The translations under genes and the position numbers were made by a program. From assembly GCA_025456345.1 (NCBI GenBank), contig JALOKU010000001.1, forward strand, positions 1 to 64,000: a stretch of DNA of 64,000 nt. The letters are read 5' to 3'. This document shows, piece by piece, positions 8,492 to 49,759 of the stretch. Origin of the DNA: Vicinamibacterales bacterium (GTDB lineage Bacteria; Acidobacteriota; Vicinamibacteria; Vicinamibacterales; JAKQTR01). How positions within the stretch are numbered: position 1 is the first letter of the stretch; each line of letters starts with the position of its first letter. A model generated the notes under the pieces. It saw nothing but the letters and a program-made list of their open reading frames with translations. It searched no databases and was not told where the DNA came from.

Positions 8492-10103
8492 TCAGCCTGT
8501 AGATCCTGATCTGGTTCCCCGACGCCACCAGCACCAGCCACGGCGCGGCGTTCAGGGAGGCCGCCATCTCGCCGCCCCGGCCTTCGTAGGCGTCGAGGTG
8601 GACGACGACGTGGCTCACGCCGAGTCGTAGGAGTCCGGCACGGGACCGCTCATCGGGGAATCCCCGGAGCGCGGCCGCAATGCCGGGATAGCTGGACGGG
8701 ACGAAGCCGCTGTAGCCGTTCACCAGCGGCTTCCAGTGTGCGGTGGAACTCAGGACGTACGGCGCGTTGCGGAGCACGGCCTCCGGCTGGAAGAACGGGA
8801 ACTCCGCCACGGCCCGCACCGACGGGTCATTGAGTGACTGGTAGAGCCGCGGGATGCCGTCGAACGGCCTGAAGGCGATCGGCGCGCGCAACGCCTCCAC
8901 GTTGACTGCCGCGACGAGGACGGCGACGGCCACGGGCCACCAGCGTTTCCCTCCATGCCGCGCGCGCAAGGCGCTCACGCCGAAGCCCGCCAGCACGGCC
9001 ACGGCTACGAGCGCGAGGAAGCCGAACCGGGCGGCGCCGCGAACGCCCTGCAGCAGCGGCAGCCACCGGTAGAGAAGGGCGTAGCCGGGGAGCGCTGGAC
9101 CGAACGACAGGGCAAGACCGGCAGCGCCAAACGCCGCGGCCATGCGGATGCGCGGGTCCCGCAGGCCGGGCTTCGCGGCGATCGCGTACCCGGCCAGCGC
9201 GAGCGCGGCCACGCCGGGGAAGAGCGCGGTCGAGCCCTCCAGGAAGCGATGGCTCCACGCGGCATAGTGCAGACGGCCGGCCGTCGACAGGTAGTCCCGC
9301 CAGGTCGAGGAGTAGAGCGCCACTTCGTCGAGGCTGCGCGTCAGTCCCTGCTCCCGCTGCGTGAGGTAGTACGGGTACAGGAACGGCGCGACCAGCGCCG
9401 CGGCAATGGCGGCCGCCAGCCCGAGCAGGGCGGCGGTGCGCGCCGGTGCCGGGTGCCGCCATTCGTTCACGCGGACGGCAACACCAACGGCTGCGGCCAT
9501 CGCGGTGAAGACCAGCAGGTAGTTCGACGTCAGTCCCTGGAGCGCGCAGGCCACACCGAGAAGGACGGCGTCCCGCGCGCGCCGCTCCACGAGCAGCCGA
9601 TCGAGGGCGAGCAGCACGACGGGCAGGAACTCCAGGTGCAGGGCCTGGAGATGGGGCAGCCGCGTGAGCGTGTGCGCGTTGAAGGCCAAGAGCGAGCCGG
9701 CGACGGCGCCGGCGGCGCTGCTGCCGGTCCAGCGTTTCAGCAGGAGCCACATCGCCCAGGCCGAGAGGGCGAGGCCTGCCATCACGAGCAGGTTGTACGC
9801 AAGCAGCGGCGAGCCGCCGAGCCAGAGGACGGGGGCCCCCATCAGGCCCTGCACCGTCATGTGCTCCGAAAAGGCCAGCGCGCGAGGCTCGGGATGGAAG
9901 ATGTTCGCGTCGAACAGGTGCAGCGGCGCGCGCGGCGCCTGGTAGGCGACCCACGCCACGATCCACTCGTTCAGCATCGCGTCGGCGTTGTCGTGGCGCG
10001 ACAGCACGGCCGGGGCCGTGGCCAGGGGCCACGTGTGCAGCACCGCCAGCGCGAGGCAGGCGGCTAGCGCTCCGGCGGCCAGGCGGCGATCTGAAACAGC
10101 CAC
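8481..10103 (-). CDS. Multi-membrane-span protein, GT-C glycosyltransferase-like
   Basis: 540 residues with roughly ten hydrophobic segments. An early extracytoplasmic loop, NADAMLNEWIVAW, matches the acidic loop position of GT-C polyprenyl-phosphate-sugar transferases. A C-terminal periplasmic part reads AEFPFFQPE, STAHWKPLVNGYSGF, then FPDERS. The neighbour at 10064 has the same architecture and the same C-terminal motifs, so these are tandem paralogues. The start overlaps the neighbour's end by 40 bp, which suggests one transcript. The substrate cannot be read from sequence. A lipid-linked sugar donor is family inference. Confidence 0.7.
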   Translation of the reverse strand: MAVSDRRLAAGALAACLALAVLHTWPLATAPAVLSRHDNADAMLNEWIVAWVAYQAPRAPLHLFDANIFHPEPRALAFSEHMTVQGLMGAPVLWLGGSPLLAYNLLVMAGLALSAWAMWLLLKRWTGSSAAGAVAGSLLAFNAHTLTRLPHLQALHLEFLPVVLLALDRLLVERRARDAVLLGVACALQGLTSNYLLVFTAMAAAVGVAVRVNEWRHPAPARTAALLGLAAAIAAALVAPFLYPYYLTQREQGLTRSLDEVALYSSTWRDYLSTAGRLHYAAWSHRFLEGSTALFPGVAALALAGYAIAAKPGLRDPRIRMAAAFGAAGLALSFGPALPGYALLYRWLPLLQGVRGAARFGFLALVAVAVLAGFGVSALRARHGGKRWWPVAVAVLVAAVNVEALRAPIAFRPFDGIPRLYQSLNDPSVRAVAEFPFFQPEAVLRNAPYVLSSTAHWKPLVNGYSGFVPSSYPGIAAALRGFPDERSRAGLLRLGVSHVVVHLDAYEGRGGEMAASLNAAPWLVLVASGNQIRIYRLITS

Positions 10104-39533: not shown

Positions 39534-40400
39534 TCAACGGATGTCGAGGCCCCTGGCGGCGCGCTGTCCGCCGCTGCTGTCCGTGCCGGCTGCGAACGAC
39601 GCCCCGCGACGCGTCCGCGCCCACTCGTTGTCGTGCCACCAGGCCTGCACCTTGCGCATGGCCGCCTGGTAGCTGCCGCCATGCCGGCGGCACCGATAGC
39701 CGTACCGGGCCGCGCGGCTGGCAGGCAGCGGCGACCCGTCGTAGTCGGCGACGGCGTGAAACAATTCGAACGAGGGCCGCGGCAGCGACAGCCCGATCCG
39801 GATCATCGCGACGACGTCCTCCGGGCTGATCCAGGCGCCGGGGTCCGAATCCGCTTCGTGCGGGGTGACGCTCCCGAGGCGCAGGCATGTCACGGTCAGC
39901 CCGAACCGCTCGTGGTACAGACGGCACAGGGACTCGCCGTGGATCTTGCTCGCGGCGTAGTGGCTGTCCGGGCGGGGGGCATCCGCCTCGTCGAACCGAT
40001 CATCGCGGCGGTACATTCCCATCACGTGCATCGAGCTGGCGAAGACGAAGTGCGTGACGTCGGCTTCGACGGCGCTGCGAAGCAGATTGACGACCGCGAT
40101 CGTATTGTCCGCCACCAGGCTGGCCGCATCGGCCTCCTTCGAAGCGGCGGCGAGGTGCACGATCGCATCCACGCCGGCGACGATGCGTTCGCAGTCGCTG
40201 ACATCACAGAGGTCGGCCCGATCGTCGCCGCTGCCGGTGCGATCGGCGAGCCGGAGCTCGACGTCCCCGGCCCGGAGCAGCGGTACGATCAACGAGGCGA
40301 CTGCGCCGTTGGAGCCGGTGACCAGCACGCGGCGGACAGCGGCCTCGGGTGCGGCAGGCCCGCCCCGTCCAACGATCCGCCGTATCCAGGACGTGGTCAT
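39534..40400 (-). CDS. NAD-dependent epimerase/dehydratase (extended SDR)
   Basis: 288 residues. The Rossmann start is VRRVLVTGSNGAVASLIVPLL, with GVDAIVHLAAAS, the SSMHV segment and the catalytic YAASK. LRLGSVTP follows. The compact size and FHAVADYDG resemble uronate dehydrogenase-like SDRs more than large sugar epimerases. The glycine motif GSNGAVA ends in Ala where Gly is usual. The ATG overlaps the stop of the kinase/glycosyltransferase gene (ATGA), so it is the last gene of the six-gene modification/export operon. A role in making or oxidising a sugar for that system is inference. Confidence 0.8.
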   Translation of the reverse strand: MTTSWIRRIVGRGGPAAPEAAVRRVLVTGSNGAVASLIVPLLRAGDVELRLADRTGSGDDRADLCDVSDCERIVAGVDAIVHLAAASKEADAASLVADNTIAVVNLLRSAVEADVTHFVFASSMHVMGMYRRDDRFDEADAPRPDSHYAASKIHGESLCRLYHERFGLTVTCLRLGSVTPHEADSDPGAWISPEDVVAMIRIGLSLPRPSFELFHAVADYDGSPLPASRAARYGYRCRRHGGSYQAAMRKVQAWWHDNEWARTRRGASFAAGTDSSGGQRAARGLDIR

Positions 40401-42229
40401 GCGGTGTCGGCGCCTCCAGGGGGCGCTCCGGGCGCCGTGCCGGCCTGCCTGGCCCGCTGGAGGGCCTTGCGAAAGGCGCCCAGCGTGGTGGCCCGCAGCT
40501 CTTCGCGGGTCTTCTGCGCCGTCATGTTCCCCCCGTGGCGGCGCACCTGGAGCGTTATCTGCTCGAGGCGCTCAACCTTCAGCCCGCTCTCCTTGATCCG
40601 CGTGTACCAGTCGGTGTCTTCGGCGAACCGCAGCGTCACGTCGAAAAGCCCGATCGCCTCGAAGGCCTCCCGCCGGTACAGCCCGGCGCCGATGTAGTGC
40701 GGGAACGACTCCGCCGGGTTGCCTTGAGGATGGAAGGCTCCCGACACCGGGTCCAGGATGAGCATCTGGGCGTGGCCGCGGACCACCATCAGGTCCGCGT
40801 CGGCTCGAAGCGCCTCGGCCAGGCTGACCAGCGTGCCTTCCGGCCAGAGGTCGTCCACGTCCAGGAACGCCAGCAGCGCGCCCGAGGCGTCGCGGATGCC
40901 ACGGTTGCGGGCAGCAGACGGGCCGGCGTTGTCCTGTTTGAAAAAGCGGACGTCGACGGGCAACCGGCCGGCCACATCCTGCACGTCGTCGGTCGACCCG
41001 TCATCCACGACAATGATCTCGAGGCACGGGTAGTCCTGCGCCAGGACATTGCGGACGGCTTCCTCGAGGAAGCGCGCGCCGTTGTACACAGGGATGATCA
41101 CGGAAATGAGCGGCGGCGCCGTGGATGTCCCTCGAGCGGTCCGGGCCCTGCCCGCCATCGCGTGCAGGTCCGGGTCGGACTTCGCCACGGTGTCGCGAAT
41201 CACGGCAACCACGCGGTCCCGGTCCGAACCGAGCACCAGTTCGAAGCCCGGCAGCCGATCGATCATGGATTCGATGAACGCCTGCGTGCGCTGTCCGGCG
41301 TAGGGCAGTTGCGAGAGCGTCGTGAAGGCCCCGGCGCGGCGAAGCGTCATGGCGTCGGCCGGGTGGAGCCGAGTCTCGACCTGAGGTGCCACGCGCGGGG
41401 TCACAACGGTTCGCAGTCGCATCCGCGGCGCGATCTGCGGCGCCAGGCCCGGATAGAGCTGCAGGACGGCTTTCTCGCCATCGGCGGCTGGATGGTGCCG
41501 TACAAATGGCGCCAGTTGCGGGAAGTGCGCGACATCGCCGGCATTCAGCTTGGCGGTGCTGTACAAGCTGTACACCGCCGGCTCCGGATCGAGGCGCACC
41601 GCGACGTAGTCGTCGCCTGCGTAACGCATCCCCCTCACCAACGCAGCGAGCGCGGTGCTGGACTTCCCGACACCCCCCTTGCCCGTGATGAGCATGGCCC
41701 CGTCGGCGGTGCCGACCGCCGCCGCGTGCAGCAGCTGCGCCCCTGAGCGCTCGAGCGCCCAGTGCAGCAGCGTGCGCAGCGGAGACGCCTTCGACCAGAA
41801 CGGCAGGTCGTCTGCGTTCTGCAGCCAATGCACGCCGACGCCGGTGGCGAGATCGAGGCAGTTCACGGAGTACTCCACCCAGTGGAACGCCGTGCGGTAG
41901 CGCGGGCTCGTGAAGCCCCAGAGATCCCCGCGGTCGGTGAAATCGTGCCGGGTGCAGGGCGGCGGGGGCATCCGCACCCCAGTCGACCGGCCGTCCCAGA
42001 TGTGGAGGACCAACTCGGCTGGCGTGTCGCCCCCGCTGACGAGGTGCCGGAGGCCCGGCAGGAGGTCGCCGACCAGGCGCGGCCCGGCGAACACCAGGTC
42101 GATGCGGACCTCAGCCACGGTGAGCGGGACCACCTCGCAGCCAGCCGCGCGCTCGGCGGCAAGGGCCGCGTCGAGGGCGCGGCAGTAGAAGTCCTGCTGT
42201 TCGGCTTCGCTCTTGCGTGCTGGGTCCAT
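40397..42229 (-). CDS. HprK-like kinase fused to a GT2 glycosyltransferase
   Basis: 610 residues in two modules. Residues 1-350 resemble HprK-related kinases: LLHAAAVGTADGAMLITGKGGVGKSS contains the P-loop (about 182-191), and AGDDYVAV supplies the acidic pair. Residues from about 372 are a GT-A family-2 glycosyltransferase: ISVIIPVYNGARFLEEAV, VVDDGSTD, AARNRGI, LDVDDLWPEG as the DxD-type motif, and AEDTDWYTRI. HprK-like proteins phosphorylate a Ser; GT2 enzymes use nucleotide sugars. I see no frameshift or stop between the modules. ATG 42229 has AGGATGAG upstream, four bases after the ABC exporter stop. Acting on one shared substrate is an inference from fusion. Confidence 0.85.
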   Translation of the reverse strand: MDPARKSEAEQQDFYCRALDAALAAERAAGCEVVPLTVAEVRIDLVFAGPRLVGDLLPGLRHLVSGGDTPAELVLHIWDGRSTGVRMPPPPCTRHDFTDRGDLWGFTSPRYRTAFHWVEYSVNCLDLATGVGVHWLQNADDLPFWSKASPLRTLLHWALERSGAQLLHAAAVGTADGAMLITGKGGVGKSSTALAALVRGMRYAGDDYVAVRLDPEPAVYSLYSTAKLNAGDVAHFPQLAPFVRHHPAADGEKAVLQLYPGLAPQIAPRMRLRTVVTPRVAPQVETRLHPADAMTLRRAGAFTTLSQLPYAGQRTQAFIESMIDRLPGFELVLGSDRDRVVAVIRDTVAKSDPDLHAMAGRARTARGTSTAPPLISVIIPVYNGARFLEEAVRNVLAQDYPCLEIIVVDDGSTDDVQDVAGRLPVDVRFFKQDNAGPSAARNRGIRDASGALLAFLDVDDLWPEGTLVSLAEALRADADLMVVRGHAQMLILDPVSGAFHPQGNPAESFPHYIGAGLYRREAFEAIGLFDVTLRFAEDTDWYTRIKESGLKVERLEQITLQVRRHGGNMTAQKTREELRATTLGAFRKALQRARQAGTAPGAPPGGADTA

Positions 42230-42233
42230 GCGC

Positions 42234-43979
42234 TCATCCTGACGTGGCGGGCGGATGCCCCGCGGCGGGCTGGGCGGCCGGGTGCAGCCGGCCGTCGCGC
42301 AGCTGGTAGCTGCGGCGGACGAACCCGATGACCCTCGGGTCGTGGCTGACGACGAGGATTGCGGGGGAGTCCGGGAGCTGCCGCAGGGCGGGCAGGATTC
42401 TGCCGACCACCGCGGCATCGAGATGATTGGTGGGCTCGTCGAGCACGAGCAGCCGCGGCCGGCGCAGCACCGCCCGCGCCAGCGCCAGGCGCTGGCATTC
42501 GCCGCCGGACAACGTGATGCCGGCCTCCCCGAGCAGCGTGTGGTAGCCCTCGGGCAGGTCGCGGATGAACTCGTCTGCGAAGGCTCCCCGTGCCGCGGCG
42601 GCAATGGCGTCGTCGGTCGCGCCGTCGTGCCCGTAGGCAATATTGTCGCGGATCGTACCGTGGAAGAAGGCCGCCCGCTGCATCACGACGCCGATGCCGC
42701 GGCGGAAGTGCTCGAGATCCAGCTCGGCGTATGGCGTTGCGTCCGCCAGGGCAAGCCCCGAATCGGGCTTGAGCATGCCGAGCAGGACGTTGAGCAGCGT
42801 TGTCTTGCCCGAACCGTTGGGCCCGACAATCGCGACGTGTTCGCCGGGTGCGAGATCGAAGTCGATGCCGCGCAGCACCGGCTCGCCGCCGTAGCTGAAC
42901 GTGACGTCGCGCAGCGCGAGCCGGCCGGTGAAGTCGATCCGCGCCGACCCGCCGTACGGCGCCTCCACACGCTCGCTGTCGATGGCGGCGAGGGTGCCCA
43001 GCGACACCCCGGCCGCCACAAGGTCTGCCGTCCCCCGCGTCAGCGCCAGGACCGAGTTGCTGAGCATGCTCGCGCCGACGTAGAACGACACGAACTGTCC
43101 AAGCGTCATCAGGCCGTGCATGACCTCGAGCCCGCCGGCGACGAGCAGCCCGATTCCGAGGACGCCGACGACGGTGCCCTGCAACTGGCCGTGCACGGCA
43201 TAGCTCCAGGCCATCCGCTCGCCGCTCGCCGCCAGGTCGCGGACCACCTGCTGCTGGCGCGCGAGCTCCTCGCGCTCGAAGGCCTGGGTGCGCGTCAGCT
43301 CCATCTGGCGCAGGACGAACGACACGCCCCGATTGAATCGCCCGAAATCATCCTGGAACGCGGCGACGTCGCGGCCGACGCGCCGCTGGGTCCAGCGCGC
43401 GGCGAGCCACACGACGGGCGCCGCCAGGCTGGCCAGCGCAACGAGCGACCAGCTCAGGACCATGAGCAGCACGAACAGCGCGGCGGCCGTAAATGCCGCC
43501 GGCAGCAGGCCGGAGAGCATCGATCCGACCAGCACGTCGAGCCGCTCGGTGTCCTGGACGACCTGGTTCTGAAGCCGGTCCACGTCGGCGCGCGTGCGCG
43601 TGGCGCGCTCGATCCGGTAGAGCTTCTCGATCAGTTCCTCGCGCATCTGCGCGACCGTGTTCTTGGTGAGGCGGACGACGTAGCGGCGGAGGGCCAGCGC
43701 GCCTGCGGCCGCGGCAACCCGCACGGCGACGATGCCGGCGCCAATCCATGCCAGCAGGACCGGATCGGACTGGGGAATGGCGGTGTCGATGGCCAGCCGC
43801 ACCAGCACCAGCGTGGGAACCATCGAGGCGGCCGTCAGCGCGGCGGCCAGCGAGTAGACCACGAGCCGGCGCGTGTGCGGTGTGAAGTACCTCGCGAAGT
43901 AGCGCCACGCCTCCGGCGACCCCCACCCGAGCCGGCGCGCCCAGTGCTTCGAGGCTCCGGCGGCGTGGCTGGCAGGCAT
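42234..43979 (-). CDS. ABC exporter (membrane and ATPase domains fused)
   Basis: 581 residues. Residues 1-330 form the six-helix exporter domain (YSLAAALTAASMVPTLVLVRLAI). The NBD has Walker A GPNGSGKTT, signature LSGGECQ and Walker B LLVLDEPTNHLD. D-loop and a His-containing switch (VVSHDPR) are present. All catalytic residues look intact, so it should work as a homodimer. There is no N-terminal C39 peptidase domain. The start is two bases after the nucleotidyltransferase stop. Context suggests export of the product made by the flanking RRE, kinase and glycosyltransferase proteins. Lasso-type exporters have this architecture. Confidence 0.9.
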   Translation of the reverse strand: MPASHAAGASKHWARRLGWGSPEAWRYFARYFTPHTRRLVVYSLAAALTAASMVPTLVLVRLAIDTAIPQSDPVLLAWIGAGIVAVRVAAAAGALALRRYVVRLTKNTVAQMREELIEKLYRIERATRTRADVDRLQNQVVQDTERLDVLVGSMLSGLLPAAFTAAALFVLLMVLSWSLVALASLAAPVVWLAARWTQRRVGRDVAAFQDDFGRFNRGVSFVLRQMELTRTQAFEREELARQQQVVRDLAASGERMAWSYAVHGQLQGTVVGVLGIGLLVAGGLEVMHGLMTLGQFVSFYVGASMLSNSVLALTRGTADLVAAGVSLGTLAAIDSERVEAPYGGSARIDFTGRLALRDVTFSYGGEPVLRGIDFDLAPGEHVAIVGPNGSGKTTLLNVLLGMLKPDSGLALADATPYAELDLEHFRRGIGVVMQRAAFFHGTIRDNIAYGHDGATDDAIAAAARGAFADEFIRDLPEGYHTLLGEAGITLSGGECQRLALARAVLRRPRLLVLDEPTNHLDAAVVGRILPALRQLPDSPAILVVSHDPRVIGFVRRSYQLRDGRLHPAAQPAAGHPPATSG

Positions 43980-43981
43980 GC

Positions 43982-45157
43982 TTAATTCCGTGCCCCGGCG
44001 GCACCCGCGGTCGTCCGCCGCCGGAGGCCCTGCAGCACGCGCCGTGGTATCTCCCGGCGGCCGGACAGCCCCCAATGGAAACGCAGGAAATGCGTGAAGG
44101 CGCCGGCCGTCCGAAACGGCCCGCCGATCCCCGGCAGGCGGGGGAATTCCGCCAGCGCGTCCAGCAGCGGGCCCATGGCCGACTCGTACCGCAAGGGCTT
44201 CAGGAGCGTCCGCAGTTCCAGGCGTTCTCGCAATGTGGGCTGGACGCCCGCCAGGCGGGCCAGGGCCGATGGCGGAACGTCGGCCGCGAACTGCCGGGTC
44301 AGATACGCGAGGCCGAGGTGGAGCCGGTACGTGAGATGCCGCTCGGTGGCGAAACCGACGAGCCAGTCCCAGTCGATCGGCTGGCGGCCGTGTCGGAGGA
44401 TCATCACGGCGTCCGGAATCCAGCGGACCGGCGGCTCGGGATTCCAGCGCAGCCCGTGGATGATGGTGAGCAGCAGCAGCCGGGAAGGATCGGGCGCCAG
44501 GATGTCGCGGCCGAGGAAACGGAACGGCTGCGCGGTCTGCCAGAACACGTCGTCCGCCGTGTCGTCGCAGAGGTCCACCAGCATATGCCAGTGAAGGTCG
44601 ACCTCTTTCTGGCCCGGCGCCTTGAAGCCGACCGCATGGCGGAACCGCTTGACGTCGCCGTCGAGGGTACGCCACGGCCGGTACCCCAGTTCGGCCAGGA
44701 TCTGCGATGCGGCCTCGGCCTGGTCCCCCGGCACCGCGAAGTCGACGTCGGACATGGGGCGCACGCCGAGGTTGCCGTAGTAGCAGAGCGCCAGCGGAGC
44801 GCCCTTCAACGCCATGACCCGCAGCCCGGCCGCGAGGAACCGATCGAGGACCGGGCGGGTGCCGTCGAAGAGGCGGTGGTTCTTCGCCCACGCGAGGCGA
44901 TAGGTGCCCTTGAGACGGCCCGTCAGCGCGTCCTGGTGGCCGAGACGGCGCAGGTTCTCGTAGAGGAGCGGGATCAGCCGGAAGACCTCCCGATCGAAGT
45001 CCCGCGACATGTCCACCATGGCCAGCCACGCCTCGTAGGCGCGCAGCGCATCCGGACCGTCCCCCAGCGCGCCACGAAGCACGAGAGACTGTTCGCGGCT
45101 GGGGAAGAGGCCGTGTCGATCGGCGTCGTGCGGCGCTCGAGGTCCTGTCCGGCCCAT
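43982..45157 (-). CDS. Nucleotidyltransferase family protein (PF14907-like)
   Basis: 391 residues. Core: RVMALKGAPLALCYYGNLGVRPMSDVDFAVP, the G...R.m.DvDf signature of the 'uncharacterised nucleotidyltransferase' family, with KEVDLHWHM as the second acidic strand. The C-terminal half is helical. Members often lie beside PqqD-like, HprK-like and asparagine-synthase-like genes in peptide-modification clusters. The chemistry in those settings is largely unproven. ATG 45157 shares one base with the stop of the GT2 gene (TGATG); the upstream part of the frame is shadow. Confidence 0.82.
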   Translation of the reverse strand: MGRTGPRAPHDADRHGLFPSREQSLVLRGALGDGPDALRAYEAWLAMVDMSRDFDREVFRLIPLLYENLRRLGHQDALTGRLKGTYRLAWAKNHRLFDGTRPVLDRFLAAGLRVMALKGAPLALCYYGNLGVRPMSDVDFAVPGDQAEAASQILAELGYRPWRTLDGDVKRFRHAVGFKAPGQKEVDLHWHMLVDLCDDTADDVFWQTAQPFRFLGRDILAPDPSRLLLLTIIHGLRWNPEPPVRWIPDAVMILRHGRQPIDWDWLVGFATERHLTYRLHLGLAYLTRQFAADVPPSALARLAGVQPTLRERLELRTLLKPLRYESAMGPLLDALAEFPRLPGIGGPFRTAGAFTHFLRFHWGLSGRREIPRRVLQGLRRRTTAGAAGARN

Positions 45158-45852
45158 CACCCGGGTGCTCCTTCCCCGGCGCGCCGCTTGCGGTCGAGGG
45201 CCCCCCTGATCGCTCTCAGGTAGTCGGCGGGCGAACTGCCGTCCCGCCGCACGGTGTTGGCATCGTGGATGCGCCGCTGCAGCACCACCGCGTCGATTGT
45301 CTCGATGCGCAGGCCGGCCGCCTCGGCGCGGGAGAGCCACTCGATCATCTCGCCGACCTTCAGCGACTCGTCGAAGGGCCCGACGCGTTCGAACGAGGCG
45401 CGCCGGACGAGGAACGTGCCGGCGAAACGGGCCACCGAGGGCTCGGGGTCGAAACGCATGCGCCCCGCCAGGCGGTCGGCGAGTTCGGGCGAGACAAACT
45501 GCGACAGCGCGGCAAACACCCCGTCGGATTGCGGACGGGCCTCCAGGTGGGCCAGGCGGACCGCCAGGCCTCCTGGCGCCCAGACGTCGTCCGCGTCAAG
45601 AAACGCGAGGTACGGCGCCCGCGCGCGGGCGATCCCCGCGTTGCGCGCCGCGGAAATCCCGCCGTTCGGCTGCCGGTAATACTCGATCGGCCCTCCCTGG
45701 CTGCGGATGACATCGGCGCTCCCGTCGGTCGACCCGTCGTCGATGACGATGATGCGCGCCGGCGGGGGAGCCTGGGCCAGCGCGCTTTCCAGCGCGGCGG
45801 CGATGTAGCGGGCCGTGTTGAAGCACGGGATGACGAGGTCGACGTCCGGCAT
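45157..45852 (-). CDS. Family 2 glycosyltransferase (short)
   Basis: 231 residues. VDLVIPCFNTARYIAAALESAL, IIVIDDGSTDGS, PNGGISAARNAGIARARAPY and FLDADDVWAPGG (DxD-type site) are standard GT2/GT-A motifs. The C-terminal acceptor half is shortened (GPFDESLKVGEMIEWLSRAEAAGL). Its catalytic region resembles the GT2 half of the kinase fusion four genes on, so the operon encodes two related glycosyltransferases. It lies 25 bp after the PqqD-like gene and is coupled to the nucleotidyltransferase. Donor and acceptor are unknown. Probably a soluble or peripheral cytoplasmic enzyme. Confidence 0.88.
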   Translation of the reverse strand: MPDVDLVIPCFNTARYIAAALESALAQAPPPARIIVIDDGSTDGSADVIRSQGGPIEYYRQPNGGISAARNAGIARARAPYLAFLDADDVWAPGGLAVRLAHLEARPQSDGVFAALSQFVSPELADRLAGRMRFDPEPSVARFAGTFLVRRASFERVGPFDESLKVGEMIEWLSRAEAAGLRIETIDAVVLQRRIHDANTVRRDGSSPADYLRAIRGALDRKRRAGEGAPG

Positions 45853-45877: not shown

Positions 45878-46318
45878 CTACTCCGCGGGCGTGCGCGGCT
45901 TCACCGGCCAGCCTTCCTCGCCCACGTCGTGAATGGGATCGAGCAGCAGCAGGTCCTGCATGTCCGAGTAGACCTTGAGCTCCGGCGGCGCATAGGCCTG
46001 GCCGGAGACGCCCGGTGCGTCGCTGGTCAGGATATCGTCCGGACCGGCCTCGCGGATGAGGCCCTCGCGCCTCAAGGCCTCGAGGAAGGCCTCCATATCG
46101 CTCCGGGCGCGCTCGGGCGCCAGGCCGAAGCCGTCGGTGAGCGCCGCCAGAGCGGCATCTGCCCTGACCTGCTGCTCCACGCACTGCCACAGGTAGGATC
46201 CAATCCCCTCGCTGCTGTAGTAACGGCCCTTCTCGAGGTTGATCACGACCAATTCGCCGTCGATTACCTCGCTGACGGCGTTTGGCGCGTTGATGACCCA
46301 CTCGGCGCGGCTGGACAT
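45878..46318 (-). CDS. PqqD-like (RRE) protein with leader-like C-terminal tail
   Basis: 146 residues. Residues 6-90 match the PqqD/RRE winged-helix fold (VSEVIDGELVVINLEKGRYY, SYLWQCVEQQ, FLEALRREGLI) that binds RiPP leader peptides. After a flexible linker, residues 109-138 form an odd tail. It begins YAPPEL, fitting the Y-x-x-P-x-L core of lasso leader peptides, and continues DMQDLLLLDPIHDV and EEGWP. Plain PqqD ends before such a tail. The ATG has GAGG five bases upstream. It is the first gene of the six-gene operon. The tail could be a built-in substrate, a docking peptide for the kinase or transporter, or a pseudo-leader. Which one cannot be told here. Confidence 0.8.
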   Translation of the reverse strand: MSSRAEWVINAPNAVSEVIDGELVVINLEKGRYYSSEGIGSYLWQCVEQQVRADAALAALTDGFGLAPERARSDMEAFLEALRREGLIREAGPDDILTSDAPGVSGQAYAPPELKVYSDMQDLLLLDPIHDVGEEGWPVKPRTPAE

Positions 46319-49610: not shown

Positions 49611-49625
49611 GGACATTGAGGGGAC

Positions 49626-49714
49626 AGTAGTCAGTAGTCAGTAGCCAGTATTCAGTAGAAAGGGAGGCCAGCGTGACACTGTCTCACCCTACCGGCTACT
49701 GGCTACTGGCTACC
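49626..49714. repeat. Inverted pair of heptameric arrays (AGTAGYC / GGCTACT)
   Basis: Five 7-bp units (AGTAGTC x2, AGTAGCC, AGTATTC, AGTAGAA) at 49626-49660. They face three complementary units (GGCTACT x2, GGCTACC) at 49694-49714 across a 33-bp spacer. The arrangement can fold into a long imperfect hairpin between the divergent apbE-like and yjbQ-like genes. Confidence 0.85.
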
Positions 49715-49759
49715 TACTACTGACCGACGAGCCCCCTGCCCCCTGCCCCCAGCCCCGAG

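Follow-up and report, generated by a model that had tools for sequence, protein, structure and literature searches.

A PqqD/RRE-domain protein with a recurrent, lasso-leader-like C-terminal tail in a kinase and glycosyltransferase gene cassette

The stretch of DNA analysed here, called the window below, comprises 64,000 nucleotides of one contig (JALOKU010000001.1) from a Vicinamibacterales bacterium of the phylum Acidobacteriota. The features studied (Table 1) comprise P0001, an RRE-domain protein with a C-terminal tail, and a cassette in which this RRE-tail protein is accompanied by an HPrK-like kinase (K), GT2 glycosyltransferases, an ABC exporter and an NTP_transf_5 protein (N). In Pfam, K matches PF07475 with 27.8 bits, below the cut-off of 33.3, and PF00535 with 100 bits; its translation holds the P-loop GKGGVGKSS, and it matches the cassette-kinase profile with an E-value of 4.7e-102. 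The epimerase-like gene is a less constant member of the cassette. Elsewhere in the window, an intergenic inverted repeat is located at 49622-49725, with two 37-nt arms that are 81% complementary and 30 nt apart, built of CAGTAG/CTACTG-like units.

Table 1. Positions of P0001, its segments and the cassette genes in the window
Feature	Position	Strand	Basis or remark
P0001, PqqD/RRE-domain protein with leader-like tail	45878..46318	-	146 aa
RRE (PqqD) domain, residues 7-92	46043..46300	-	PF05402 at residues 22-88
Variable linker, residues 93-108	45995..46042	-	identity and low confidence in homologue model
Leader-like segment YAPPELKVYSDMQDLLLLD, residues 109-127	45938..45994	-	lasso register and modelled strand/helix
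Conserved core-like motif PIHDVGEEGWPVKP, residues 128-141	45896..45937	-	identity; pLDDT 54-62, without modelled structure
GT2 glycosyltransferase	45157..45852	-	PF00535, 104 bits
N, NTP_transf_5 nucleotidyltransferase-like protein, 391 aa	43982..45157	-	PF14907, 132.9 bits
ABC exporter, membrane and ATPase domains	42234..43979	-	PF00005 and PF00664
K, HPrK-like kinase (about 1-365) fused to GT2 (about 371-610)	40397..42229	-	
NAD-dependent epimerase-like protein	39534..40400	-	PF01370; homologue in 11/82 neighbourhoods

P0001 is laid out as a PqqD/RRE domain, a variable linker and the tail YAPPELKVYSDMQDLLLLDPIHDVGEEGWP / YAPPELKVYSDMQDLLLLDPIHDVGEEGWPVKPRTPAE. A preliminary description had proposed a PqqD-like domain followed by a tail with YAPPEL, DMQDLLLLDPIHDV and GWP, and this is borne out by the 146-residue translation of 45878-46318 on the reverse strand, which holds all three elements, together with the PF05402 match (51.9 bits against a cut-off of 23.4). 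The same family is matched by all 66 members of alignment A4 at E<=0.1. The nearest solved structures to the P0001 model are lasso B1 RREs with bound leaders, namely 5v1v, the lasso RRE TbiB1 with its leader (Z 12.7, rmsd 1.9, 87 aligned residues), 5v1u (Z 12.5, rmsd 1.3, 84 aligned) and 6jx3 (Z 11.2, rmsd 1.7, 85 aligned). The best NCBIfam match is lasso_PqqD_Bac (NF033536) with 47.4 bits, under the curated cut-off of 80, and none of the Pfam and NCBIfam matches seen covers the tail.

The tail is widely distributed. Scanning GTDB genomes with a profile of 11 tails, we found 242 stretches matching the search pattern [DE]LLL[LA]DPIH, which fixes nine positions, and 225 of them were confirmed by tblastn, so the possibility that the tail is unique to P0001 is refuted. 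The best 80 of these 225 loci, chosen by likeness to the tail consensus, were kept and inspected; they come mostly from MAGs and include Chloroflexota, Bacteroidota, Cyanobacteriota, Acidobacteriota, Nitrospirota, Deltaproteobacteria, Pseudomonadota, Planctomycetota, Verrucomicrobiota, Lentisphaerota, Gemmatimonadota, Bipolaricaulota and Bacillota. Of the 80 proteins or frames concerned, 79 are PqqD-domain proteins with the tail as their C-terminus. The tail recurs, but in the kept loci not as stand-alone peptides or on other domains, the outcome by which the preliminary description would have recognised a substrate or tag. The sole exception (L109) has an intact tail in an open frame of 99 codons, about 59 residues if read from a possible TTG start, without a recognisable PqqD domain. 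On the plasmid side, the search gives one record, from Crinalium, with the tail on a PqqD protein whose gene is directly followed by NTP_transf_5 and HPr-kinase genes; viral contigs gave two weak matches, both read as chance. A full-protein scan of genome contigs with P0001 found no relative, while the tail-profile scan did recover relatives.

Among 396 genomes of the window's phylum, 11 full tails are present, every one ending a PqqD protein, together with two variant tails on PqqD proteins and one intergenic remnant, the remaining matches at E>=0.004 being judged as chance. At the order level, 8 of 162 genomes have a tail match at E<=0.01, and this search added three tail genomes: G453, G482, whose tail is a variant, and G510, which holds three copies. 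Of these three, two are on PqqD proteins directly 5' of the kinase, and the last (L208, the same place as L109) is without PqqD. At this place (L109 1739-1840) a complete tail stands directly before a GMC-oxidoreductase-like gene; it may be a stand-alone tail or a truncated or eroded gene. The remnant, KPSLEKYTDQQEMLLLDPIHEV, is located at 9461-9526 of locus L073 in genome G236, with a stop on either side. Three variant tails (L074, L076 and L204) read Y-x-x-P-x-L-x-A-Y-x-D-M-x-D-[LM]-L-A-L-D-P-P, keeping the leader-like half but ending differently, as would result from divergence of the core-like part.

Within the protein, conservation is distributed unevenly. Mean pairwise identity over 77 rows (2,926 pairs) is 35% for the domain, 10% for the linker, 69% for the leader-like part and 67% for the core-like part, the tail values being inflated because the pattern fixed nine positions and the ranking favoured the tail consensus. 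Outside the pattern, 78 of 79 tails have an aromatic first residue, 78 the Pro and 78 the Val after DPIH, and the Asp and Met before the Leu run are present in all 79. For Y-x-x-P-x-L itself, the counts are 78 for the aromatic residue, 78 for Pro and 79 for Leu, Val, Ile, Met or Phe at the third position (Leu in 60). None of the residues Ser, Thr, Tyr and Cys keeps a constant place in the core-like part of the 79 tails, and the residue at the C-terminus is variable.

For comparison with lasso leaders we used 10 sequences from the window's phylum, picked by eye: nine of 15 extracted (L158, L162, L163, L165, L171 and L172 were dropped) and L048, which had itself come from the tail search. Aligned without gaps, the leaders read Y-x-x-P-x-L-x-x-Y-G-D-x-x-x-L-T and the tails F-x-x-P-x-L-x-K-Y-T-D-M-Q-D-L-L, that is, the first 19 tail residues are in the lasso-leader register, with Y/F-x-x-P-x-L kept and the Gly and the penultimate Thr lost. 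The hhalign score of the leader profile against the tail is 14.3, whereas shuffling the columns of the leader profile 300 times gives 1.9 on average and 9.1 at most. The probability that hhalign itself assigns to so short a pair is only 2%, with an E-value of 0.0087. A 19-position matrix of the leaders gives residues 109-127 of P0001 15.5 bits and the next window -5.6, and in 77 of 79 proteins the best window is the tail, in register. None of the 289,019 19-mers from the 870 other ORFs called in the neighbourhoods reaches 15.5 bits, and a six-frame scan including non-ORF frames gives one chance 19-mer at 15.2 bits among 1,291,644. The earlier assignment of YAPPEL to the Y-x-x-P-x-L core of lasso leaders is therefore upheld by the register and score of residues 109-127.

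At the Gly position of the leaders, 75 of 79 tails have Thr or Ser and one has Gly, the window's residue being S118; in 15 divergent or variant tails Thr or Ser is kept in 5, the others having E (4), H (2) and N, D, A and R (one each). At the position of the penultimate Thr all 79 tails have Leu, a residue that was fixed by the search pattern. In lasso leaders this Thr is known as a recognition point for leader removal (PMC10368454). Since the RRE-binding residues are kept while the Gly and the penultimate Thr are lost, we read the tail, from its sequence, as a leader that would still bind but is probably no longer meant for cutting.

AlphaFold was run on P0001 with an alignment of 76 homologues and P0001 (L093, L101 and L116 being left out of 79); a second structure alignment contained 65 of the 79 PqqD-fused proteins and P0001. 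The P0001 model has a mean pLDDT of 90-91 at residues 101-120, with a predicted strand at 115-117 and a predicted helix at 120-126, after which pLDDT falls to 54-62 and the core-like motif is disordered. In the model of a homologue (L084), the linker has a pLDDT of 64-67 and the leader-like part 88-89, with a strand at the equivalent residues. A strand assignment by DSSP requires a pairing partner. From this assignment, the local confidence and the binding of leaders to RREs as a fourth strand beside beta-3 (PMC5067487), we infer that the leader-like segment lies in the leader groove, and both models are consistent with self-docking in the RRE. The preliminary description had also considered that the tail might fold into the PqqD domain as an ordinary extra strand. 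A strand and a helix are indeed predicted; this does not tell an ordinary extra strand from a docked leader, which adds a strand to an RRE in any case (PMC5067487).

We then present the gene context of the tail. In 82 neighbourhoods, many of which end at contig edges and which were searched with profiles built from the window and Crinalium genes, the HPrK-like kinase is found in 69, GT2 in 69, NTP_transf_5 in 63 and ABC in 42; when only the 56 loci that extend 6 kb or more downstream are counted, these figures become 51, 50, 47 and 31, respectively, and the five of these 56 where no kinase was detected are L109, L131, L135, L146 and L149. A fusion of kinase and GT2 in a single ORF is seen in the window and in 15 of the 81 other neighbourhoods, 16 of 82 in all. 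Kinase or NTP_transf_5 occurs within 1.5 kb in 66 of 74 tail loci against 10 of the 27 PqqD loci without a tail that come from the window's order, and GT2 in 38 of 74 against 0 of 27. The other downstream genes (66 of 71 scanned) are mainly GT1/GT4 glycosyltransferases (13), accompanied by sulfotransferases (5) and methyltransferases, and a leader protease (B2) is not among the matches listed, which cover 25 of 46 Pfam families. Judged by these gene families, the cassette looks like one for the synthesis and export of a decorated glycan.

The asparagine-synthetase-like lasso cyclase, searched with a single phmmer query, is found within 1.5 kb in none of the 74 tail loci, and at E<=1e-3 in none of the 82 whole neighbourhoods; the same query finds it within 1.5 kb in 13 of 27 tail-less PqqD loci, and it also detects 7 of 17 lasso-leader loci. 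On the outcome of this single-query search, and because the lasso leader family NF033521 has no match in the window's own genome, a lasso peptide cluster is rejected. Two loci of the window's order (L014 and L018) have NTP_transf_5 homologues adjoining tail-less PqqD and asparagine-synthetase-like genes, and are apparent lasso clusters.

The kinase follows the tail in its distribution. Searched alone at a preset E<=1e-25 in the 396 genomes of the phylum, the cassette-kinase profile, which is tuned to the tail-linked subfamily because it was built from tail loci, matches 13 genomes. These are exactly the genomes in which an intact tail is present, in full form in 11 and as a variant in 2. The two variant-tail genomes, G050 and G247, carry the tail HDMADLLALDPP, and in G050 kinase and tail are on separate contigs; G236, with the tail remnant only, has no cassette kinase at this threshold. 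NTP_transf_5, by comparison, is present in 208 of 376 genomes and thus is not specific to the tail. The kinase is strongly indicated by these distributions as the partner of the tail. The earlier alternative of a docking tag for the kinase holds up in this respect, that the same 13 of 396 genomes have both; the evidence is co-occurrence, which shows a shared pathway, not contact.

The explanation that we favour, tentatively and with slightly less than even confidence, is that P0001 is a lasso-B1-type RRE whose tail is a built-in leader mimic, so that the protein is a self-loaded adaptor or activator of the kinase in a glycan-type cassette and not a cleaved RiPP precursor. The segment F/Y-x-x-P-x-L-x-K-Y-[T/S]-D-M would lie in the RRE leader groove as an added strand, in cis or from a neighbouring copy, with the MQDLLLL helix beside the docked strand; the docking would display DPIHEVDExGWP as a fixed recognition surface for K, through which the surface would reach the glycosyltransferases, fused to K in some loci. 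Along with the position in the groove, the binding of K and the target that K phosphorylates are what we infer, and strand and helix are predictions of the model. The adaptor is preferred since the core-like part does not vary between phyla and offers no constant Ser, Thr, Tyr or Cys, the cutting signal is absent, and the kinase is the one specific companion of the tail.

The preliminary description had instead proposed a self-presenting substrate, in which precursor and recognition domain would be joined in one protein, the tail being the precursor. In this reading K would phosphorylate the tail, NTP_transf_5 would attach a sugar at the phosphate and chain extension would fall to the glycosyltransferases, making the RRE protein a glycan primer. 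We consider this rather unlikely, although it comes close behind the adaptor because a lasso kinase of the same type and the pseudomycoidin nucleotidyltransferase phosphorylate and glycosylate a precursor in this way (PMC8498205). The composition of the cassette, with kinase and nucleotidyltransferase families, several glycosyltransferases and an ABC exporter, agrees with it, as do the NTP_transf_5 homologues of the two apparent lasso clusters and the finding that 75 of 79 tails carry Thr or Ser where the 10 leaders have an invariant Gly. However, only 5 of the 15 divergent or variant tails keep this Thr or Ser, so a helix cap explains it as well as a phosphosite, and its role as a required phosphosite is weakened. 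The proposal is further opposed by the absence of a constant Ser, Thr, Tyr or Cys in the core-like part and the varying C-terminal residue, and by the lack of a protease among the listed families of the other downstream genes. It is not supported so far, as the tail stays on the same PqqD protein in nearly all kept loci, the signal for the lasso protease is missing, the search nearby found no lasso-cyclase-like gene, and the core-like part is conserved, not variable. In an extended and clearly less probable form, a lasso-type RRE would have taken up leader and core into its own chain, the kinase would phosphorylate the built-in peptide, and NTP_transf_5 and the glycosyltransferases would build an exported phosphoglycan decorated by methylation or sulfation; in such a protein-primed pathway the RRE would be both matchmaker and substrate.

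An autoinhibitory pseudo-leader, which would keep the groove blocked until displaced by a true precursor from a gene elsewhere, is improbable. Such behaviour would be expected of a leader mimic that sits in its own groove, and real lasso leaders are found elsewhere in the window's phylum. Against it, the six-frame scan gives 51 non-tail 19-mers of at least 9 bits among the 1,291,644, none precursor-like by eye, and no small lasso-like ORF in the 82 neighbourhoods exceeds this chance level; no second tail is found in any of 202 loci; and the conserved core-like motif would be left unexplained. The least probable reading, that the tail is just an extra strand stabilising the RRE, agrees with the strand and short helix confidently placed in both models, but leaves unexplained why the tail is twice as conserved as the domain, why the core-like motif is conserved yet unstructured, and why tail and kinase co-occur one to one.

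RREs serve as beacons for the discovery of RiPP pathways. Here a large, multi-phylum RRE family seemingly has its own leader and stands beside a dedicated kinase and glycan genes, not RiPP chemistry. If the tail docks in cis, leader recognition has been put to a different use, and a separate precursor may be unnecessary for many 'orphan' PqqD proteins.

Among known systems, the domain is of a known kind, while the fused leader-like tail and the cassette appear new within the open-licence literature, where our searches brought up neither an RRE with a leader-like tail fused to it nor the P0001 cassette, and within the Pfam and NCBIfam matches seen. The HPr-rel-A system (kinase TIGR04352, PqqD protein TIGR04353) is a similar pairing of an HPrK-related kinase with a PqqD protein, to judge from the model names; unlike its members, P0001 scores 19.6 bits against the TIGR04353 cut-off of 35, and the kinase model gives 19.3 for the window kinase and 38.7 for the Crinalium kinase against a cut-off of 200. 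In lasso clusters, the C-terminal Ser of the precursor receives a phosphate from an HPrK homologue, and in the case of pseudomycoidin this phosphate is then extended by one or two hexoses through a nucleotidyltransferase (PMC8498205). The cassette likewise combines genes for an RRE, an ABC exporter, an HPrK-like kinase and a nucleotidyltransferase-type protein; unlike pseudomycoidin, it has several glycosyltransferases and neither a lasso cyclase nor a C-terminal Ser. Borosins, as far as the sources available describe them, are a natural precedent for enzyme-substrate fusion, a substrate joined to its own methyltransferase; their fused partner is a modifying enzyme, whereas that of P0001 is a recognition domain and modification is hypothetical. 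Close relatives are also the lasso B1 proteins, the discrete RREs such as TbiB1 and PadeB1, whose fold P0001 shares and whose bound leader its tail resembles; unlike them, and with no cyclase found nearby, P0001 carries the leader-like segment fused to the RRE itself.
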